Below, one piece after another: positions 724-11,032 of a stretch of DNA of 24,153 nt. The DNA comes from a virus. Location of the stretch: positions 1-24,153 of IMG/VR virus record IMGVR_UViG_3300043464_000291, one strand, 5' to 3'. The notes beneath the pieces were generated by a model. That model searched no databases. It saw nothing but the letters and a program-made list of their open reading frames with translations, and was not told the origin of the DNA. The position numbers were made by a program, and so were the translations under genes. Numbering within the stretch: position 1 is the stretch's first letter; every line of letters starts with the position of its first letter.

Positions 724-861
724 ATGCCGCTGGTGAAGTCCACCTCCAAGGACGCCTTTCGCAAGAACGTGAAGGCTGAAATTGCTGCCGGCAAGCCGGC
801 AAAACAGGCTGTCGCCATCGCGTATTCGACCAAGCGCGCAGCGGCTAAGAAAGGCAAGTAA
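724..861 (+). CDS. Very small helical protein (KSTSKDAFRKNVKAEI type)
   Basis: A 45-residue protein starting one base after the previous stop and ending in a TAATG overlap with the portal start. The text reads as one amphipathic helix followed by the pattern GKPAKQAVAIAYSTKR and a Lys-rich tail. The AGKPxKQAVAIAYS pattern is common in tiny phage proteins near structural genes. A longer in-frame ATG at 610 would overlap the upstream gene and is not preferred. The function is unknown. Together with the two genes before it, it makes a cluster of three small basic products between terminase and portal. Confidence 0.72.
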   Translation: MPLVKSTSKDAFRKNVKAEIAAGKPAKQAVAIAYSTKRAAAKKGK

Positions 862-3038
862 TGGCCGCCAACGATGTAGAAGCCGCAGGCAAGGTATCGG
901 ACAGCGACGACAAGGACCGTCTGTCCGTCATGCGCCGGCGCTACACCATGGCGCTGTCGGCCTACTCGGACAGCCGCGAGGACGAACTGGACGACCTGCG
1001 TTTTATGGCCGGGTCGCCCGACAACCAGTGGCAGTGGCCGGCGGACGTGCTGGCGACCCGCGGGACTGTGCAGGGCCAGACGATCAACGCGCGGCCGTGC
1101 CTGACGATCAACAAGCTGCCGCAGCATGTGCGCCAGGTGACCAACGAGCAGCGGCAGAACCGGCCGACCGGCAAGGTGATCCCGGCCGACGACCGCGCGG
1201 ACGTGCGCGTGGCCGAGATATTTGACGGCATGGTGCGGCACATCGAGTATATCTCAGACGCCGACGTGGCCTACGACACGGCCTGCGACAACCAGGTCAC
1301 CTACGGCGAGGGCTACATCCGCATTTTGACGGAGTACGCCCGCGAGGACAGCTTCGACCAAGACATCAAGATCGGACGGGTGCGGAACTCGTTCTCGGTC
1401 TACATGGACCCGGCCATTCAAGACCCGTGCGGCGCCGACGCCGAATGGTGCTTCATCACCGAAGACGTGAGCAAGGCCGACTATGAACGCATGTTTCCAG
1501 ACGCTGCGCCGATTTCTAGCCTCATGTCGCAAGGCGTGGGCGACCAGAGCCTTTCTCAATGGCTCTCGGAAAACATGGTACGTATCGCCGAATACTTCTA
1601 CTACGAACACGAAAAAGCGACGCTAAACCTCTACCCCGACAACATCACAGCCTTCGCCAACTCGCCGCAGGACAAGCAACTGAAGGCGATGTTTGGCAAG
1701 CCGCTGCGTAGCCGCGTGGTCGACCGCAAGAAGGTCAAGTGGGTCAAGACCAACGGGTTTGAGGTACTGGAAGAACGCGATTGGGCCGGCAAATACATCC
1801 CCGTCGTGCGCGTAATTGGCAACGAGTTTGAGGTCGACGGTCAGCTTTACGTGTCGGGCCTTGTGCGGAACGCCAAGGACGCCCAGCGCATGTACAACTA
1901 CTGGGTCAGCCAGGAAGCCGAAATGCTGGCTTTGGCGCCCAAAGCGCCCTTCATTGGCTATGGCGGCCAGTTTGAAGGCTACGAGACGAACTGGAAGACG
2001 GCCAACACGAACAACTGGCCGTACCTAGAGGTCAATCCAGACGTTACGGACGGCGCTGGAAGCCCTTTGCCGCTTCCGCAGCGCGCACCGCCGCCGCTGG
2101 CCCAGACCGGCCTCATACAGGCTAAATTGGGCGCTGCTGACGACATCAAGGGCACCACAGGCCAGTATGACAGCAGCCTAGGCGCCCAGAGCAACGAGCG
2201 GTCTGGTCGGGCCATCCTCGCCCGCGAGAAGCAAGGCGACACGGGTACCTACCATTACGTCGACAACCTGTCCCGCGCGATCCGCTACGTCACCCGGCAA
2301 CTTGTGGACATGATCCCCAAGATTTACGACACCGCCCGCGTGGCGCGCATCGTGGGGCTGGACGGCGAGGTGGGCATGGTAAAGATCAATCCGACCCAGC
2401 CGGAGCCTGTGAAGGAAATCCGCGACGAAAACGGGCTTGTGATCGACAAGATTTACAACCCGTCGGTCGGCGTTTACGACGTGTGCGTGACCACTGGGCC
2501 AGGCTACATGACCAAGCGTCAGGAAGCCTTGGACGCCATGTCTATGCTGTTGCAGTCTAACCCGCAGCTTTGGACGGTCGCCGGTGATCTGTTCATCAAA
2601 AACATGGATTGGCCGGGCGCGCAGGAGATGGCGGCGCGATTTGCTAAGATCATTGATCCAAAGGTTATGGAAGGCGAAGACCAATCGCCCGAAATGCAGA
2701 TGGCCAAGATGCAAATTGAAGCCTTGACCAAGGAATTGAACCAAGTCGTCGGCATGTTGCAGCGCGTCGAGCAATCCATCGAGGCGCAGGAAGTGCAGAT
2801 CAAGGCCTACGACGCCGAAACCAAGCGCATTTCCGCGGTCCAGGCCGGCATGACGCCAGAGCAAATCCAAGACATCGTGATGGGCACCATTGCAGCAGCT
2901 ATGGATACCGGCGATCTGGTTGGGCCAGGCGGCCCAGTTTCACGTGAAATGCCGGAAATGCAACCGGAAATGGGCGGAATGCCACCAGATATGGGCGGAA
3001 TGCCACCTCAAATGCCGCCAGGAGGCCCAATGCAATGA
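861..3038 (+). CDS. Portal protein, P22 gp1 type
   Basis: A 725-residue protein, the same length as the phage P22 portal. A dodecamer of this protein forms the ring at one capsid vertex through which DNA enters and leaves and to which the tail attaches. The N-terminal quarter has the conserved P22-type text: RFMAGSPDNQWQWP, then LTINKLPQHVRQVTNEQRQNRP and FDGMVRHIEYISDAD, then a YGEGYIRI segment. The middle contains SFSVYMDPAIQDP, and a glutamine-rich helical stretch (from about residue 610) would form the barrel helix. The last 36 or so residues are rich in Met, Pro and Gly and carry a short tandem repeat. The start overlaps the previous stop by one base and the end overlaps the next gene by four. 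Confidence 0.95.
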   Translation: MAANDVEAAGKVSDSDDKDRLSVMRRRYTMALSAYSDSREDELDDLRFMAGSPDNQWQWPADVLATRGTVQGQTINARPCLTINKLPQHVRQVTNEQRQNRPTGKVIPADDRADVRVAEIFDGMVRHIEYISDADVAYDTACDNQVTYGEGYIRILTEYAREDSFDQDIKIGRVRNSFSVYMDPAIQDPCGADAEWCFITEDVSKADYERMFPDAAPISSLMSQGVGDQSLSQWLSENMVRIAEYFYYEHEKATLNLYPDNITAFANSPQDKQLKAMFGKPLRSRVVDRKKVKWVKTNGFEVLEERDWAGKYIPVVRVIGNEFEVDGQLYVSGLVRNAKDAQRMYNYWVSQEAEMLALAPKAPFIGYGGQFEGYETNWKTANTNNWPYLEVNPDVTDGAGSPLPLPQRAPPPLAQTGLIQAKLGAADDIKGTTGQYDSSLGAQSNERSGRAILAREKQGDTGTYHYVDNLSRAIRYVTRQLVDMIPKIYDTARVARIVGLDGEVGMVKINPTQPEPVKEIRDENGLVIDKIYNPSVGVYDVCVTTGPGYMTKRQEALDAMSMLLQSNPQLWTVAGDLFIKNMDWPGAQEMAARFAKIIDPKVMEGEDQSPEMQMAKMQIEALTKELNQVVGMLQRVEQSIEAQEVQIKAYDAETKRISAVQAGMTPEQIQDIVMGTIAAAMDTGDLVGPGGPVSREMPEMQPEMGGMPPDMGGMPPQMPPGGPMQ
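2970..3007 (+). repeat. 21-bp tandem repeat coding the portal's Met-Gly-Pro tail
   Basis: The 17-base string ATGGGCGGAATGCCACC occurs at 2970 and again at 2991, so the unit is 21 bases and encodes a seven-residue repeat (MGGMPPD, then MGGMPPQ), followed by a degenerate MPPGGPM. The reading frame is kept, so slippage would add or remove whole heptads of the flexible portal tail. Confidence 0.85.
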
Positions 3039-3406: not shown

Positions 3407-5989
3407 ATGACAGTCAATCTTTCAGCTTTGGCTGGAGCCGGCGCACAGTTTTTTGACAACAACGGCAACATGTTGTCGGGCGGTAAGTTGTATTCATACG
3501 CAGCGGGCACTACAACACCGCAAACCACATACACCAGCGCGTCAGGTTCTACCGCGCACACTAACCCCATAATTTTAAATTCTGCTGGCCGTGTTGCAAC
3601 TGGCGAAATTTGGTTGACCGCTACTCAAACTTACAAATTTGTACTGTACACAGCTACCAATGTTTTAATTGCCACATGGGACAACATTGACAGCATTACA
3701 CCAGCAAGCAATATTTTTGCTGATTTTGCCAATACTTCTGATGTCACTAAAGGCGATGCTTTGGTGGGTTTTAAGCAGTCCAACGCAGCGGGCGTTTTGA
3801 CTGGCGCAGTAGCAGGCACAGTACACACAAAACTTCAAGAATTTATCAGCGCAAAAGACTTTGGTGCTGTTGGTAACGGAACAGACAACGAAACGGCAAT
3901 ATTTACCACTTTAGAGTCTGGCACAACAGGCGCCACCGTTGATCTGTTAAACGGCATTTATTTGGTGACAAGCATTCCGGTTGGAAACAACTACTACAAC
4001 GGCGCGTTTAAAGTTGGCACGGATATTTTCTGGCAAAACCGCAACCCTCGCGCTCACCCGTTTGAAGGCCCAGCCACTAGCGTTCGGCATATCAACCCAC
4101 GAACAGGAACTTATTGCGGTCTAAATGTTGGGCTGTTCCCAAAAACCACTGGTGGCATGGTGTTGGTGTGGCGGGAAGCAACTACACATGCCGTTCAAAA
4201 TGGCACACGTTTAAAAGCTGCTTGGACAGATGATGGTGGCCGCACAATTCAAGCGTATCCAGCCCCAGACACCGATCAAAGCCTGCCAACCATATCGTAC
4301 AGCGCAACCGCTGACACGCGCAATTTTGCGTCTGGCATCATCAACGGTCGGTTTGTCATTGTTACGACGCGCCGAGAAGAACCACAAACCTCATCAATCT
4401 ATCAAGACCCGCTGTCAATATACAGTGATGATGAGGGGTTAACGTGGACTAGCGCTGCCATTACGGGGCTTGTTGATACAGCCATAAATTTTCACAGCAA
4501 AGTCTACCCGTGGCCCAGTGGCGGTACAAATGGCGCTATTGTGTTTGACTACCGTAGTGGCGGTATTGGTGCATTAACCAGCACTAACGGCGGCGCAAGT
4601 TGGACAGATATTGGGGTTGTTGTTGCTGCTGGCGCATTTGCGTCACTTTCTGAAATGTCAGTGGCTCAGATTGGTTCTGAAAACAAGTGGGTTATGGTAA
4701 TTCGCACATCATCACTTGGTAATTTTGCAGTAAGCACCTCTGTAAATTTGACTACGTGGACAACAGCGGTAGACAGTGGTGTTTTGCTAAAAGGCAATCC
4801 TCCTGAGCTGATGTACGCTGACGGCAAGCTGTTCATGGTTTCTTTTTCTCGCCGCAACCAGTCAATACTTACAGGTTATGAAAATGCATTGTTGATTGCT
4901 GAAGGCAACGCAAGCCTTGTTTTCTCGTCTGGTGGTACATCTGGCTGGTCTGGGTGGAAAGTAGTTTCCCAGCTTGGGTTCTGGCCTACTGGTTACATTA
5001 GCACGGCATCAGTTCGGGGCCGTTGGTATGCTTTGATGACTGCAAGCGAAGAAACTGCGGGCAGTTCTACTGGACGCACCGCGTATCTTGCAATGCTGTC
5101 TACTGATTTGGTGGACGTTGCAGACACCCGCACAATTTTGGAGGCTGTACCGCAGCACAATCTGATCTCCAACGGCGTGCTGGAATATTGGCCTAACGGC
5201 ACATCGTTTACGACAGCATCAGCCAGGACTCTTATTCTGCCCGATTTCACATTTGCCCGTGGCGCATTTGATTCTGGTTTTACAGTTTCTCAAATCGCCG
5301 GTGATACGCAAAAATACGCAATGCGTATTCGCCGCGATGATGGCAATACACTAACCACGCAATTAGGGTTGACCCACACGTTAACCCAGTTGGATAGTTC
5401 AAAATTTATCATTGGGAATGAATATTTAGGCATTCAGTTCCGTTGCCGTAAAGGTTCTGGATTTTCAGCAGCCAATGGATTTTTGACCGTTCAGGTTCGG
5501 TATACGGACACGGCTGGCGAACAGCAAGTCACAAGCGCCGCGGGTACTTTTGCCACTACGGATGAGCCAGTTCAATCAGCAAGCACGGGCATCACGCCAA
5601 CTGAAAATTGGGAAAATTATTTCTTGCCAATTGGCCCAGTTCCGGATGCGGCTACTCAGTTGCTAATTCGTTGGACATGGACGCCTATTGGAACTGCCAG
5701 CAATGATTACATTGATCTTGAGCAGATCACATTGTTTGTTGGCAAGCAACGCAGCCCAGTAGTGAAACGAACCTACACTGAAGCCGTGAATGACTCACTA
5801 CCTTTTTTCTGGAAAGGCACTGTCAGAAGCGAAAACGGTTCTCGTTGGATTTCTTTTCCAACAGTAATGCACCGGATACCGGCAGTAACTGTATCTGTTG
5901 GCACTGCGGCCAACATTTCCACTCTTGGTTTTGAACTTAGTCATAGCAGCGCTGCCGACGTTACTGTCACGGCCCAGGCTTGGCTATAA
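3407..5989 (+). CDS. Tailspike: head-binding-like N-terminus plus sialidase-like Asp-box domain
   Basis: An 860-residue receptor-binding protein. Residues 1-97 have the pattern of P22-type tailspike anchors and other phage adhesins: QFFDNNGNMLSGGKLYSYAAGT, NPIILNSAGR, IWL and TYKFVLYTATN, ending WDNIDSI. Residues 149-163 carry KDFGAVGNGTDNETA, the usual start of a pectate-lyase-type beta-helix. Instead of a long helix, the next part resembles a BNR/sialidase beta-propeller: a full Asp-box at 340-347 (SDDEGLTW), a close one at 392-399 (STNGGASW) and a degenerate one at 274-281, with Arg residues at 227, 232 and 256. Residues from about 585 form a separate beta-rich, probably carbohydrate-binding or trimerising region, ending in a knob-like AVTVSVGTA and VTVTAQAWL. 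I infer cleavage or binding of a sialic-acid-like surface sugar; catalytic residues are not assigned. The ATG follows an AAGAGG ribosome site. Confidence 0.88.
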   Translation: MTVNLSALAGAGAQFFDNNGNMLSGGKLYSYAAGTTTPQTTYTSASGSTAHTNPIILNSAGRVATGEIWLTATQTYKFVLYTATNVLIATWDNIDSITPASNIFADFANTSDVTKGDALVGFKQSNAAGVLTGAVAGTVHTKLQEFISAKDFGAVGNGTDNETAIFTTLESGTTGATVDLLNGIYLVTSIPVGNNYYNGAFKVGTDIFWQNRNPRAHPFEGPATSVRHINPRTGTYCGLNVGLFPKTTGGMVLVWREATTHAVQNGTRLKAAWTDDGGRTIQAYPAPDTDQSLPTISYSATADTRNFASGIINGRFVIVTTRREEPQTSSIYQDPLSIYSDDEGLTWTSAAITGLVDTAINFHSKVYPWPSGGTNGAIVFDYRSGGIGALTSTNGGASWTDIGVVVAAGAFASLSEMSVAQIGSENKWVMVIRTSSLGNFAVSTSVNLTTWTTAVDSGVLLKGNPPELMYADGKLFMVSFSRRNQSILTGYENALLIAEGNASLVFSSGGTSGWSGWKVVSQLGFWPTGYISTASVRGRWYALMTASEETAGSSTGRTAYLAMLSTDLVDVADTRTILEAVPQHNLISNGVLEYWPNGTSFTTASARTLILPDFTFARGAFDSGFTVSQIAGDTQKYAMRIRRDDGNTLTTQLGLTHTLTQLDSSKFIIGNEYLGIQFRCRKGSGFSAANGFLTVQVRYTDTAGEQQVTSAAGTFATTDEPVQSASTGITPTENWENYFLPIGPVPDAATQLLIRWTWTPIGTASNDYIDLEQITLFVGKQRSPVVKRTYTEAVNDSLPFFWKGTVRSENGSRWISFPTVMHRIPAVTVSVGTAANISTLGFELSHSSAADVTVTAQAWL

Positions 5990-5999
5990 GGGAGACAAC

Positions 6000-6095
6000 A
6001 TGGACAACTGCGAAATTATTGAAATTAACGGGAACGTCCTTGTGTGCGTTTGTTTAATTACTAGCGCAATTTTTAAGGTGGCACTCAATGGCTGA
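6000..6095 (+). CDS. 31-residue hydrophobic peptide between two tail genes
   Basis: A short reading frame starting at 6000 with a GGGAG ribosome site seven bases upstream, ten bases after the tailspike stop. The peptide begins MDNCEIIEINGN and then has a hydrophobic run VLVCVCLITSAIFKVAL that could span or sit on a membrane. It overlaps the next gene by eight bases. Three cysteines in 31 residues is unusual. It may be a real small membrane peptide or a translation-coupling leader for the following gene. No family is recognised. Confidence 0.55.
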   Translation: MDNCEIIEINGNVLVCVCLITSAIFKVALNG

Positions 6096-7398
6096 TCGTT
6101 ACTGGGTTGGTGGCGCCGCAAGCTGGGATGCGACGGCATTACTTAAATGGTCAACTACTTCTGGCGGTGTTGGCGGCGCAGCCGTTCCAACTGCCGTCGA
6201 TGATGTTTATTTCAACGCGGCATCTGGCGCTGTAACAGTAACGGTTGCAGCCGCAGCTACTTGTAAAAATTTAACATTTACTGGTTTTACAGGGACTTTT
6301 GCTGGTTCGTCAGCTTTGACTATTTCAGGAAGTCTGACGCTTGTCTCAGCCATGACCCGCACGTTTACAGGGGTGGTCACATTTGATGGAACTTCAGCCA
6401 ACACCATCACTAGCAACACCAAGGATTTAAACAGCAACGTCACGTTTAACGGCGTAAGTGGCTCTTGGCAGCTCGCAGATAATTTTGTGACTGGCTCAAC
6501 CCGCACGGTTACATTGACAAACGGAACGCTGGACATTAACGGAAAGACACTTACTGGTGGCGCGTTTTCGTCTAGTAATTCAAACACTCGTACAGTTGCA
6601 TTTGGTACGGGCGGCAAGTTTATAGCGACCCGTGACAACATTGCAATTTGGAATACCAGCACATCTACGGGTCTAACAGTGACTGGCGATGCTCTCGTTG
6701 AGGCTACGTACTCAGGGGCTGTAGGGACTCGCAGTTTTAATGGCGGCGCGACATCAGAAACAAATTCCGTATCATTAAGCGTAAGCGCCGGGACTGATTC
6801 TTTCACGGCTCAAAATAATATTCGCAATTTAAATTTGACTGGATTTGCTGGAACATTGACAAATTCGACCCGTAGCGTTTTTGGTAATCTTACGGTTTCT
6901 AGTGGCGTGACATTGACGGCAGGCGCTCTTGTGACAACATTTGCTGCGACATCTTCAAAAACAATTACAACCAACGGTAAAACACTTGATTTTCCATTGA
7001 CGTTTAATGGTATTGGCGGCACGTTTGCTTTCCAAGATGCGCTAACGCAAGGCTCAACGCGCGCGTTTACTATTACAGAAGGAACAGTGCAACTCAAGTC
7101 AGGTGCGACCAGCACGGCGGGGTCATTTGTTGCAAACAGTACAAGCGTTAAATATCTTCAATCAACAACGCCAGGATCGCAAGCTACAATTTCGCAAGCC
7201 AGCGGCACAGTGACCGTATCTGACTTAACCATTCAAGACTCAAACGCCGCAGGCGGCGCGTCTTGGAACGCCTATGCTGATTTTGGCAATGAGGACGCAG
7301 GCAATAACGACGGGTGGAATTTTGGTTTATCCCCACCTTTTGCTGCGTATGAGCCACCTATCATTATTAGGTCGTTTACCCAACCTAGGAGATTCTAA
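6088..7398 (+). CDS. Repetitive beta-solenoid surface protein (ADRYWVGG type)
   Basis: A 436-residue protein starting after a good AAGGTGG ribosome site. It opens with ADRYWVGGAASWDATALLKW and a VPTAVDDVYFN segment, a start I know from phage and adhesin-like proteins that carry autotransporter-type beta repeats. Almost all the rest is Thr/Ser/Gly/Asn/Val-rich short strands (LTFTGFTGTFAGSSALTISG and similar), which suggests a beta-solenoid. Two long segments (residues about 98-172 and 284-358) align with each other. There are no catalytic motifs and no signal peptide. The last 25 residues turn Pro-rich and basic (SPPFAAYEPPIII, QPRRF). Probably a second tail fibre or virion surface protein working beside the tailspike. 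It could also be a cargo adhesin. Confidence 0.75.
   Translation: MADRYWVGGAASWDATALLKWSTTSGGVGGAAVPTAVDDVYFNAASGAVTVTVAAAATCKNLTFTGFTGTFAGSSALTISGSLTLVSAMTRTFTGVVTFDGTSANTITSNTKDLNSNVTFNGVSGSWQLADNFVTGSTRTVTLTNGTLDINGKTLTGGAFSSSNSNTRTVAFGTGGKFIATRDNIAIWNTSTSTGLTVTGDALVEATYSGAVGTRSFNGGATSETNSVSLSVSAGTDSFTAQNNIRNLNLTGFAGTLTNSTRSVFGNLTVSSGVTLTAGALVTTFAATSSKTITTNGKTLDFPLTFNGIGGTFAFQDALTQGSTRAFTITEGTVQLKSGATSTAGSFVANSTSVKYLQSTTPGSQATISQASGTVTVSDLTIQDSNAAGGASWNAYADFGNEDAGNNDGWNFGLSPPFAAYEPPIIIRSFTQPRRF
6379..7161 (+). repeat. Internal duplication in the beta-solenoid gene (copies about 6379-6600 and 6937-7161)
   Basis: Copy A (residues 98-172) and copy B (284-358) share an ordered set of landmarks: TF then TS then TIT plus N, K and L, next VTFNGVSG or LTFNGIGG, then a Phe/Leu-Asp block, GSTR, and an NGT or EGT turn. 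The match is clear at the protein level and weaker in DNA, so the duplication is old. Confidence 0.7.
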
Positions 7399-7399
7399 C

Positions 7400-7705
7400 A
7401 TGACCATGAACCTCAAAGCCGTAACGACCTGTTTTGGCTATCAACAGATCACCGATCTGAGCGCGTCTGTCGGACTTACCGTTCCGCCGCGCACTCCCGA
7501 CGGCCTGAACGGCAAACCTGTGCTGGCGCTCATTATCGCCGAAGGAGCGCCTATTCGGTGGCGCGATGACGGCACTGCGCCTACGACCACTGTGGGAATG
7601 CCCATCGCGGTGGGGGTGCCGTTTCAATACGACGGCGATCTGACCAAAGTGCGCTTTATCCAACAGTCGGCCAGCGCCATTTTGAACATCAGCTATTACT
7701 CATGA
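7400..7705 (+). CDS. Small virion-associated protein (RWRDDGTAPT type)
   Basis: A 101-residue protein with an AGGAGA ribosome site before the ATG at 7400; an in-frame upstream ATG at 7274 lies inside the previous gene and is not used. The text is beta-rich. The segment GAPIRWRDDGTAPTTTVGMP followed by FQYDGDLTKVRFI and a C-terminal LNISYYS is a pattern I have seen in many small phage structural proteins. Composition returns to GC-rich here, marking the right edge of the AT-richer block. It is likely a small virion or tail accessory protein. The precise role is unknown. Confidence 0.78.
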   Translation: MTMNLKAVTTCFGYQQITDLSASVGLTVPPRTPDGLNGKPVLALIIAEGAPIRWRDDGTAPTTTVGMPIAVGVPFQYDGDLTKVRFIQQSASAILNISYYS

Positions 7706-7974
7706 TCCACGCTGTTGTCGCCCTGCTGTTTCAGTTTGCGTTAGGGCTAACCTTTGGGCTTTGGTGGCTCGGGGCTTGCGCCGCGGCTGGGTTTTTTATG
7801 GGGCGGGAACACGCGCAAGCGGAATATCGAGTAATAGCGGCTTATTACGGCGGCAAACGCGCCAACATGCCTTGGTATGGAGGGTTTGAGCCAAAAGCTT
7901 GGTCTTCTAAGGGTTTGTTAGATTGGCTTTTGCCCGCCGGCGCAACACTTGTTGTTGCAATTTGTTTGACATAA
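7702..7974 (+). CDS. Small membrane protein with two hydrophobic segments
   Basis: A 90-residue protein with an ATGA overlap with the previous gene. Residues about 4-34 form one or two hydrophobic helices (VVALLFQFALGLTFGLWWLG and ACAAAGFFMG), and residues about 72-89 form another (LLDWLLPAGATLVVAICL). Between them lies a soluble loop with GREHAQAEYR and NMPWYGGFEPKAW. Size and layout would fit a holin-like or other inner-membrane protein, but a clear holin lies in the lysis cassette at 21579, so a different role, such as virion assembly or superinfection exclusion, is possible. Its last two codons overlap a consensus TTGACA that may be a promoter element. Confidence 0.75.
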   Translation: MIHAVVALLFQFALGLTFGLWWLGACAAAGFFMGREHAQAEYRVIAAYYGGKRANMPWYGGFEPKAWSSKGLLDWLLPAGATLVVAICLT

Positions 7975-7995
7975 CGCTTTGCAAGCGTTTAGTCT
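7966..7995 (+). promoter_or_regulatory. Possible promoter before the capsid genes, with a palindrome in the spacer
   Basis: A perfect TTGACA lies at 7966-7971. An 18-base spacer leads to TAGTCT at 7990-7995, which matches only three of six bases of the -10 consensus. The spacer holds the perfect inverted repeat AACGCTT-TGC-AAGCGTT (7973-7989), placed where a repressor or activator site often sits. The -35 match may be chance, because it also codes for the last two residues of the upstream protein. Confidence 0.3.
7973..7989 (+). terminator. Seven-base-pair inverted repeat after the membrane protein gene
   Basis: AACGCTT and AAGCGTT pair perfectly around a three-base loop, starting on the stop codon of the upstream gene. 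Only one T follows the stem before AGTC, so it is a poor intrinsic terminator. It may be an operator, an mRNA processing site or a weak attenuator. Confidence 0.4.
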
Positions 7996-7998
7996 TAG

Positions 7999-8024
7999 GA
8001 ACCCGTACTGGTGCGGTTCGCCAG
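7999..8024 (+). promoter_or_regulatory. Leader with two mutually exclusive hairpins upstream of the scaffold gene
   Basis: Hairpin 1 pairs GAACC (7999-8003) with GGTTC (8015-8019), and extends past one bulged C (8004) through GTA/TGC to a CTGG loop. Hairpin 2 pairs CTGGTG (8008-8013) with CGCCAG (8019-8024), including one G-T wobble. Both use bases 8008-8019, so only one can form at a time. The scaffold ribosome site (AAGGA, 8032-8036) starts eight bases after hairpin 2. Confidence 0.4.
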
Positions 8025-8029
8025 GGATC

Positions 8030-8039
8030 ATAAGGATCA
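8030..8039 (+). promoter_or_regulatory. ATAAGGATCA ribosome-site motif before scaffold (also at 8828-8837 before coat)
   Basis: The same ten bases occur just upstream of the scaffold ATG (8043) and the coat GTG (8844). Each holds an AAGGA ribosome site. GGATCA occurs once more at 8025-8030. The distance to the start codon differs: three bases for scaffold and six for coat. Confidence 0.6.
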
Positions 8040-8042
8040 AAA

Positions 8043-8825
8043 ATGTCTGAAGCAGTACAAGACTTAGCGGAACTACCCGCGCCGGAACAGGCCGCTACGG
8101 CGGCGCCTGTAACCGATGCCTCATTGCCGGAAGAACAGACGACAGAAGCGCCTAAGTCCTTCACCCAAGAAGAATTGGACGCGATTGTCGGCAAACGCCT
8201 TGCCCGTGAACAACGGAAATGGGAGCGTGAGCAAGCCCAAAGGCAGGCTGAATTGGAAGCGCGTCGGGCGATGCCCGTCAACCCTCCAGCGCCTGATGAT
8301 TTCAACAACGCTGCTGAATACGCGGAGGCTTTGGCTGAGCGGAAAGCGCAAGAGTTGGTTCGTCAGCGCGAAGCAGCCCAGCAACAGGCTAAATTGCTGG
8401 AAACATACCACGAGAAAGAGGAAACCGCCCGCGGTAAATACGACGACTTTGAACAGGTCGCGTACAACCCGAGCCTTCCTGTGACCGATGTTATGGCCCA
8501 GACAATTCAGGCTTCTGACGTTGGCCCCGACATCATCTATTGGTTAGGGTCCAATCCGAAAGAGTCTGCGCGTATCGCCAACCTTCCACCAATTTTGCAG
8601 GCCAAGGAAATCGGCAAAATCGAAGCCAAGATGGCTTCTGATCCGCCGCTGAAAAGAACCTCAACCGCGCCCGCCCCTATTGCTCCGGTGACTGCGCGTT
8701 CAGCTTCCTCCCCTGCCTATGACACGACAGACCCTAGGTCTGTTAAATCCATGTCAACGTCAGAATGGATTGAAGCGGAGCGTATGCGCCAGATCAAGAA
8801 GTGGGAGGCTTCCCGCAACCGCTAA
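8043..8825 (+). CDS. Scaffolding protein
   Basis: A 260-residue, highly charged, largely helical protein placed directly before the coat gene. It would direct coat assembly into procapsids and leave before or during packaging. The N-terminus is acidic and disordered (Ala/Glu/Pro-rich). A typical scaffold segment FTQEELDAIVGKRLAREQRK follows at about 40-59, then a long Gln/Arg/Glu coiled coil to about residue 135. A Pro/Ala/Thr-rich linker around 205-225 leads to a basic C-terminal helix (STSEWIEAERMRQIKKWEA) resembling the coat-binding end of P22 gp8. P22 gp8 is about 303 residues, so this is somewhat shorter. The ribosome site AAGGA lies seven bases upstream. Confidence 0.9.
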   Translation: MSEAVQDLAELPAPEQAATAAPVTDASLPEEQTTEAPKSFTQEELDAIVGKRLAREQRKWEREQAQRQAELEARRAMPVNPPAPDDFNNAAEYAEALAERKAQELVRQREAAQQQAKLLETYHEKEETARGKYDDFEQVAYNPSLPVTDVMAQTIQASDVGPDIIYWLGSNPKESARIANLPPILQAKEIGKIEAKMASDPPLKRTSTAPAPIAPVTARSASSPAYDTTDPRSVKSMSTSEWIEAERMRQIKKWEASRNR

Positions 8826-8843: not shown

Positions 8844-10049
8844 GTGGCTAATTCACTTCTTACCATTGACATGATCACCCGGAAGGCTCTCGAAATCCTC
8901 GAGAACAACCTTGTGATCACCCGCACCGTGAACCGCCAGTACGACGACAGCTTTGCCGTCGAAGGCGCGAAGATCGGCTCCACCCTCCGCATCCGTCTGC
9001 CAGACCGCGCTCTGGTGACCGACGGCGCCGCGCTGCAAGTGCAGGACGACAACGAACAGTTCACCACGCTGACGGTTTCCAGCCAGAAGCACATCGGTGT
9101 GAACTTTACGTCTGCCGAACTGACCATGCAGTTGGACGACTTCGCCGAGCGCGTTCTCAAGCCGCGTATTTCGCAGCTTGCGTCCAGCATCGACGCTGAC
9201 GTGGCCAACTCTTACAAGTCGATCTTCCAGTCTGTCGGCACCCCCGGCACGACCCCGGCGACCTCTCTGGTGCTGCTCCAGGCCCAGCAGAAGCTGAACG
9301 AGTCTGCTGCCGTCATGTCCCCGCGCTACGCGACGGTCAATCCGGCCGCCAACGCGGGTCTTGTGGAAGGCTTGAAGGGCCTCTTCAACCCGGTCAACAC
9401 GATCTCCCGCCAGTTCAAAAACGGCCTGATGGGTGAAGGTGTGCTGGGTCTTGAAGAGATCAACATGTCTCAATCCATCAAGCAGCACACGACCGGCAGC
9501 CGCACCGGCGCGCACACGGTGACCACCACTGTGTCCACGCAGGGCCAGGCGACGATCAACATCACCGGCACCGGCTCTCAGACGATTGCCGCCGGCGACG
9601 TGTTCACCATCGCCAGCGTGTTCGCGGTCAACCCGCAGACCCGTGAGTCCACCGGCTCGCTTCAGCAGTTTGTCGTGACCGAAGCCAACACGGCTTCCGG
9701 TGGCGCCTACACCTCGGTGAAGATCAGCCCGGCGATTTACACCTCCAGCAACGCGCTGGCGACTGTAGACAGTTTCCCGCAGTCCTCTGCCGTTGTGACG
9801 TTCCTCGGCTCTGCTTCCACGCAGTACCCGCAGAACCTCGTGTACCACAAGGACGCGATTTCCTTCGCCACCGCCGACCTTCTGCTGCCGCAGGGCGTCG
9901 ACATGGCCTCCCGTCAGGTCCACAACGGCATCTCCATGCGTGTTGTGCGCCAGTACGACATCAACAACGACCGCCTGCCGTGCCGTATTGACGTGCTGTA
10001 CGGTTTCAGCGCCATCCGCCCGCCAATGGCCGTGCGGCTCTGGGGCTAA
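8844..10049 (+). CDS. Major capsid (coat) protein, P22 gp5 family
   Basis: A 401-residue coat protein with HK97-type fold, expected in several hundred copies per head. Family marks include the N-terminal helix text LLTIDMITRKALEILENNLV, then VNRQYDDSFA, AKIGSTLRIRLP and a spine-like QLASSIDADVANSYKS. A beta-rich insertion at about 225-310 (THTVTTTVS-like text through VTEANTASGGAY) corresponds to the P22 I-domain. The C-terminus has GISMRVVRQYDINNDRLPCR, IDVLYGF and RPPMAVRLWG, strongly characteristic of this family. P22 gp5 is about 430 residues. The gene starts with GTG and uses the AAGGA site shared with the scaffold leader. It is the most GC-ordered and codon-biased stretch by eye, in line with high expression. 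Confidence 0.95.
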   Translation: MANSLLTIDMITRKALEILENNLVITRTVNRQYDDSFAVEGAKIGSTLRIRLPDRALVTDGAALQVQDDNEQFTTLTVSSQKHIGVNFTSAELTMQLDDFAERVLKPRISQLASSIDADVANSYKSIFQSVGTPGTTPATSLVLLQAQQKLNESAAVMSPRYATVNPAANAGLVEGLKGLFNPVNTISRQFKNGLMGEGVLGLEEINMSQSIKQHTTGSRTGAHTVTTTVSTQGQATINITGTGSQTIAAGDVFTIASVFAVNPQTRESTGSLQQFVVTEANTASGGAYTSVKISPAIYTSSNALATVDSFPQSSAVVTFLGSASTQYPQNLVYHKDAISFATADLLLPQGVDMASRQVHNGISMRVVRQYDINNDRLPCRIDVLYGFSAIRPPMAVRLWG

Positions 10050-11000: not shown

Positions 11001-11032
11001 GCAGGCGGCCTAATGGCCGCCTGCCCCTTTTT
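11001..11032 (+). terminator. Rho-independent terminator after the capsid gene group
   Basis: GCAGGCGGCC pairs perfectly with GGCCGCCTGC (ten base pairs) around the loop TAAT, followed by CCCTTTTT. This is a textbook intrinsic terminator. The T-run runs straight into the ribosome site of the next gene, so genes downstream must depend on read-through, anti-termination or an unseen promoter. Confidence 0.93.

Follow-up and report, generated by a model that had tools for sequence, protein, structure and literature searches.

The DNA directly upstream of the capsid scaffolding gene in this phage carries a promoter-like site, a perfect palindrome and self-complementary segments that reach into the ribosome binding site, which raises the question of whether scaffold production is set here by an operator-controlled promoter or by an RNA structure that governs translation. 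The sequence studied is IMG/VR record IMGVR_UViG_3300043464_000291, a complete virus record of 24,153 bases, and this whole stretch is referred to below as the window.

Genome context of the leader

The virus is a P22-coat phage in which a tail-fibre module sits between portal and scaffold. The portal gene (861-3038) is followed by tail-fibre genes (3407-7705) and by a 90-aa ORF (p90, 7702-7974, + strand; phrog_1443, function unassigned) that closes the variable tail-fibre module and ends 28 nt before the first paired strand of the leader. The gene under presumed control, encoding the capsid scaffolding protein (8043-8825, + strand; phrog_8865), begins with an ATG at 8043, and the P22-type coat protein gene (8844-10049, + strand; PF11651) comes next in the operon; head-tail and lysis genes are also present. 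The initial annotation had called the stretch before the scaffold gene the only long, organised non-coding one in the + strand operon; the ORF coordinates give a longer + strand gap at 5990-6087 (98 nt). Downstream of the head genes, a strong intrinsic-terminator-like hairpin (11001-11024, 10 bp, 9 of them GC) is followed by CCCTTTTT and is likely the end of the capsid transcript.

A conserved H-type pseudoknot upstream of the scaffold gene

Two overlapping hairpins had been drawn in this stretch, GAACC/GGTTC (7999-8003/8015-8019) and CTGGTG/CGCCAG (8008-8013/8019-8024), and were thought to exclude each other. All of these sequence elements are present; with the register of the first shifted, however, both helices form together as one H-type pseudoknot, as follows from the order of their strands (S1-5', S2-5', S1-3', S2-3'). 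On the + strand, S1 pairs CCG (8003-8005) with CGG (8014-8016) over 3 bp, S2 pairs CUGGUG (8008-8013) with CGCCAG (8019-8024) over about 6 bp, loop L1 is UA (8006-8007), and loop L3, which crosses S1, is UU (8017-8018) and measures 1-4 nt among relatives. A third helix, P3, starts one base beyond S2, so that pseudoknot and P3 together make up a structured leader at 8003-8038 (+ strand). Folding of the single sequence recovers S2 and P3 with ordinary energies (z of -0.76 for 8000-8045 and -1.65 for 7966-8045), and folding energy was therefore rejected as evidence for the leader. Given this unremarkable energy and the presence of eight perfect 7-3-7 inverted repeats in the window, single-sequence evidence is weak, and the case for the structure rests on covariation rather than energy.

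Relatives of the coat protein provided 80 IMG/VR loci, nearly all of which carry the arrangement ACCG-UA-CUGGUG-CGGU-UCA-CCAG-G, then a small hairpin and then an ATG, upstream of the scaffold gene. We scored the pairs of S1, S2 and P3 in an alignment of 60 loci (A1) and found 86.7% of cells paired over the three helices, with changes on both sides in 14 of 14 pairs and a covariation score of 0.450, compared to 0.204 +/- 0.013 for shuffled and at most 0.137 for slid alignments. S1 and S2 were paired in 90.2% and 91.8% of cells, respectively, every pair showing double-sided change. By the same measure, the first hairpin as originally drawn pairs in only 50% (inner) and 42% (outer) of relatives' cells and was rejected for its unconserved pairing; S1 (CCG/CGG), displaced from it by about one base, pairs in 90%. 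Near-invariant positions are limited to the UA of L1 (A in 60/60 and U in 56/60 of the aligned loci) and a few G/C positions, while the stem sequences change freely. The covariation to which the initial annotation had looked as a check is thus found as compensatory changes in every helix across diverged relatives, and a genuine, conserved structured RNA leader is almost certainly present.

The Shine-Dalgarno sequence lies within a covarying hairpin

In the window, P3 pairs GAUC (8026-8029) with GAUC (8035-8038) on the + strand, as assigned by per-sequence fit and covariation, and the Shine-Dalgarno sequence AAGGA (8032-8036, + strand) runs from the P3 loop into the beginning of the 3' arm. The repeated GGATCA that the initial annotation associated with the ribosome site is indeed there, in copies at 8025-8030 and 8034-8039. 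The Shine-Dalgarno sequence falls within the P3 loop and 3' arm in 52/60 relatives, and the mean P3 score in this first set is 10.7 by per-sequence fit compared to 4.5 +/- 0.4 in shuffled tails. Arm variants include GATTC/GAATC, GAATC/GATTC, GTTTC/GAAAC, GTTC/GAAC and TACTC/GAGTA. The nearest relative, L001, shares 33/41 leader positions with the window and is unrelated upstream (best 18/60), and its P3 differs from that of the window by a compensated double change from GATC/GATC to GTTC/GAAC. These compensatory changes, together with the placement of the Shine-Dalgarno sequence, strongly support, at the level of sequence comparison, the proposal that an RNA structure sets scaffold translation, and suggest that this control is probably exerted through access to the Shine-Dalgarno sequence. 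P3 in the window is only 4 bp long, and ribosomes may melt it without any factor.

Recognisable similarity to L001 ends at the 5' edge of the pseudoknot, and gene content between portal and scaffold (3407-7705 in the window) varies even among close relatives; the 5' edge of the pseudoknot may be a recurrent recombination boundary. The 90-aa ORF gave no tblastn match beside the scaffold gene in any of the 80 relatives. Between scaffold and coat, L064 and L023 have 179-aa ORFs that by sequence reading are putatively of homing-endonuclease type, and L055 and L077 have an ORF of about 200 aa whose reality is doubtful.

A compact pseudoknot next to a Shine-Dalgarno sequence also recalls the preQ1-I and SAM-II riboswitches, in which a compact H-type pseudoknot governs access to that sequence. 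The size and topology of the leader would fit such a metabolite riboswitch, with its pseudoknot just upstream of or including the Shine-Dalgarno sequence. In Rfam 15, however, the leader in the window was unmatched at the gathering threshold or at E<=5, as were 12 relatives at E<=1; the loops are very short and, apart from the UA, offer no conserved unpaired core in which a ligand could bind; and the gene that follows serves virion assembly rather than metabolism. We regard a riboswitch as highly improbable and as the least probable of the explanations considered.

The promoter-like site is recurrent but dispensable

The perfect TTGACA noted earlier lies at 7966-7971 (+ strand, 6/6 as a -35 box) and is followed, after an 18-nt spacer, by the -10 box TAGTCT (7990-7995, + strand, 3/6), for a total of 9/12; transcription is predicted to start 5-7 nt after the -10 box, at 8000-8002 (+ strand), the 5' edge of the pseudoknot. 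One relative (L061) has a -10 box and spacing identical to those of the window. Sigma70-like sites scoring at least 9/12 and ending 0-16 nt before S1 occur in 18/59 relatives, compared to a mean of 1.5 and a maximum of 5 in shuffles, so that a promoter-like site recurs in about a third of relatives and is dispensable. These data make it plausible that TTGACA belongs to a promoter whose start coincides with the 5' edge of the pseudoknot. The initial annotation had seen a conflict between a start near 8002 and the RNA structure; the conflict holds for the first hairpin as it was drawn and disappears for the pseudoknot, since a start at about 8000-8002, just upstream of S1, would give a transcript that begins with the pseudoknot unbroken.

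Within the promoter spacer, the perfect 7-3-7 inverted repeat AACGCTT-TGC-AAGCGTT (7973-7989) is present as first described. It could be a DNA operator that binds a repressor, the remaining structure being incidental, and the combination of TTGACA with a perfect palindrome, along with the enrichment of promoter-like sites at this position, would be in keeping with regulated initiation. The window holds seven further perfect repeats of this form, however, making the palindrome by itself weak evidence, and palindromes in the spacer are absent or weak in relatives, with a mean arm of 3.18 compared to 2.67 +/- 0.18 when the window is included, a small excess that rests largely on the window itself. 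L001 and L002, whose scaffold proteins are 98% identical to that of the window, lack both the promoter-like site and the palindrome and keep the RNA, and a DNA site would leave the double-sided changes in S1, S2 and P3 unexplained. The unconserved palindrome leaves the operator reading unsupported, and we consider it highly improbable; of the operator-controlled promoter first proposed, only the promoter half is supported, by promoter-like sites enriched among relatives. As judged from these alignments, the constant feature among relatives is the RNA, not the promoter. An intrinsic terminator at 7973-7989 was also rejected, as the hairpin has no U tract after it and is missing from the terminator scan.

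The leader is tied to the scaffold gene

A pattern scan of IMG/VR shows how closely the leader follows the scaffold gene: among 136 matches listed, 132 precede a scaffold homologue, one precedes a truncated scaffold homologue and one lies at a contig end. A covariance model built on S2 plus P3 likewise found a match before the scaffold gene in 25/25 IMG/VR records (24 long contigs and the window) and in phage DSL-LC05. The match was single in 24 of these 26 genomes and accompanied by one extra copy in two, figures that describe copies per genome rather than prevalence, given that most contigs searched came via the coat gene or the leader pattern. The position of the leader is fixed upstream of the scaffold family while the genes upstream of it differ, and in 14/58 relatives S1 and the stop codon of the preceding gene are no more than about 5 nt apart; in seven relatives the upstream stop ends exactly at S1.

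Extra copies occur in the records of L073 and L193, and also in L051, each time ahead of the same type of gene, which encodes 84-86 aa. Those at L051:3162-3193 and L073:3834-3885 directly follow the tailspike gene; in L073 and L362 (the second copy in the record of L193), the pseudoknot is followed by a different Shine-Dalgarno hairpin that covaries in its turn (TTTTAAT-TGGAG-ATTAAAA versus TTTTGAT-TGGAG-ATCAAAA). At L145:2042-2087 and L108:7779-7839 (minus strand), a copy follows a tail-fibre-type gene and precedes lysis-region membrane-protein genes. We infer that the non-scaffold copies were carried by exchange of tail-fibre cassettes.

These distributions bear on another explanation, in which the leader is a constitutive 5' pseudoknot with a weak hairpin that shields the abundant capsid mRNA from decay, or provides the scaffold gene with ribosome entry of its own whatever the variable genes upstream, and responds to no ligand. 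In its favour, the promoters of many relatives would put the mRNA 5' end at the pseudoknot, the leader persists as upstream genes change and in places begins next to an upstream stop, and rare copies stand before other late genes. Many relatives, however, have no recognisable promoter, so that the pseudoknot would often be internal, and protection of the mRNA would by itself leave unexplained why the Shine-Dalgarno sequence sits in a covarying hairpin. A constitutive element is in our judgement unlikely, although it is the strongest of the alternatives considered.

Distribution among distant relatives

Among distant phages with about 30-45% coat identity, a pseudoknot of matching geometry precedes the scaffold gene in Thalassomonas phage BA3, Vibrio phages FGH and VvAW1, Shewanella phage X14, Pseudomonas phage PAE2 and several spring-water phages; phage DSL-LC05 also has the pseudoknot. 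On single named sequences the pseudoknot finder is weak by itself (1-7/30 shuffles for several), and sets of sequences are decisive. We assembled a second, mostly marine set from new loci around the BA3 and PAE2 coat proteins. With the fit chosen by S2 only, held-out S1 was paired in 81/84 cells compared to 43.8 +/- 4.3 when reshuffled, in a set that was picked where the geometry was already recognised and so tests pairing rather than the frequency of the element. This set contains 16 different S1 combinations, and its P3 score is 10.9 compared to 6.9 +/- 0.8 for shuffled sequences.

Other relatives mark the limits of the leader. MW202483 has a divergent element, CCG-A-CTAGC-CGG-ATA-GCTAG, whose assignment relies on visual inspection and a weak finder score, and the covariance model of S2 and P3 found no match in this sequence. 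P26218, EBPR podovirus 1 and phiAX1 yielded no pseudoknot clearly above shuffles, and in all three little or nothing separates the scaffold gene from the portal gene. For many alphaproteobacterial elements at 41-46% coat identity, the finder produced nothing convincing. A P22 homologue of the leader was considered and rejected, as the candidate fold is marginal (6/300 shuffles) and its pairing is disrupted in IME10 and HZ41 with no compensating change. A host-encoded copy was rejected as well, the degenerate pattern of the freshwater leader having no exact match in bacterial genomes.

Relatives of the P22-type coat found by protein search include elements in bacterial assemblies (L365, L368 and the Rhizorhabdus locus L369). 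The last is apparently a prophage of Rhizorhabdus histidinilytica UM2, a cultured bacterium, and lies on a contig of 769 kb (NZ_FUYM01000001.1). Its coat identity is 77%, its scaffold gene is preceded by a clear pseudoknot (CCGC-A-CGGGC-GCGG-TCA-GCCCG), and it could serve as a laboratory system.

Discussion

Taken together, these comparisons favour, with some confidence, a leader in which a pseudoknot and a Shine-Dalgarno hairpin control translation of the scaffold gene, with feedback by scaffold or coat protein as a guess at the signal. With the pseudoknot and P3 folded, or held shut by a factor bound to them, the Shine-Dalgarno sequence would be hidden and scaffold translation low; when both are open, ribosomes would initiate on the scaffold gene. 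The promoter at 7966-7995 would start a capsid mRNA at about 8000-8002 that begins with the pseudoknot, and read-through mRNA from the tail-fibre genes would carry the pseudoknot as well. Were unassembled scaffold protein (or coat protein) the bound factor, scaffold output would be matched to capsid assembly.

By analogy with known systems, we hold only tentatively that scaffold or coat protein is the factor. The guess is drawn from the controlled gene being the scaffold gene itself, with normally one leader per genome, from the reported autoregulation of the P22 scaffold, and from the precedents of T4 gene 32 and rpsO. The variable stem sequences imply recognition of shape and a few bases, as in protein-bound pseudoknots. 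A Pfam search found no RNA-binding domain in either scaffold or coat. The rare copies before other late genes run contrary to feedback by scaffold alone, and P22, with its known scaffold autoregulation and no conserved counterpart of the leader, counts against the feedback reading. Alternatively, the leader could answer to a host factor, such as a ribosomal protein, RNase or RNA-binding protein, or to another late phage protein, and could thereby link late translation to the state of the host. The leader occurs in phages that infect various proteobacteria and can precede late genes of more than one kind, which would suit such a factor, as would the recognition of the rpsO pseudoknot by S15. 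Against it, freely varying stems make no specific host site evident, and a typical freshwater leader sequence finds no exact match in bacterial genomes; we judge it improbable. Control by scaffold or coat protein remains our tentative choice.

Leader pseudoknots that control translation are known from T4 gene 32 and from E. coli rpsO (PMC3014915). The gene 32 pseudoknot, some 67 nt upstream, acts as the nucleation site for cooperative binding across a ribosome binding site that is AU-rich and unstructured, and a 2010 review considered gene 32 possibly the only viral case of a pseudoknot used in translational autoregulation (PMC3014915). As in gene 32 of T4, T2 and RB69, the leader described here is a phage H-type pseudoknot upstream of a start codon, and the product of the controlled gene is needed in large, stoichiometric amount; in contrast to gene 32, the pseudoknot abuts a hairpin containing the Shine-Dalgarno sequence, the gene is a different one, and scaffold or coat protein is a candidate binding partner. 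It resembles rpsO (S15), where the translational operator of a structural-assembly protein likewise contains a pseudoknot, and differs in that rpsO is a host gene and in that the Shine-Dalgarno sequence here sits in a separate third helix. The S15-binding pseudoknot of rpsO exists in equilibrium with a two-hairpin form and extends over the ribosome binding site itself.

A passage of PMC5744158 attributes autoregulation of the P22 scaffold to Wyckoff and Casjens (1985). P22 gene 8 is the same gene in the same coat family; unlike the scaffold gene of the window, it begins 13 nt downstream of the portal gene and is not preceded by a pseudoknot with covariation support. Wyckoff and Casjens are said to have found that its regulation is post-transcriptional, and to our knowledge no RNA site has been defined for it. 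Our search of the openly searchable literature, with most subscription papers outside its scope, found no description of the leader, and capsid genes go unmentioned in the main text of the 104-motif paper. We provisionally file the leader as a new RNA family that represents a familiar sort of device, the translation-controlling leader pseudoknot. It is possible, though we would put it at well short of an even chance, that the leader belongs to a widespread and so far undescribed RNA family of phages, whose pseudoknot is bound by unassembled scaffold or coat protein so that the Shine-Dalgarno hairpin is locked.

Scaffold protein is needed in the right ratio to coat protein, and in a very large group of phages sharing this coat fold a small, strongly covarying RNA lies at the place where such control would be expected. 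The availability of cultured Vibrio, Shewanella, Thalassomonas and Pseudomonas phages, along with the apparent Rhizorhabdus prophage, makes the question directly testable. If the feedback reading is true, phages with P22-type coats would possess an assembly-sensing RNA switch through which the state of capsid assembly tunes scaffold translation, and the leader would possibly be the second viral pseudoknot to serve translational autoregulation.
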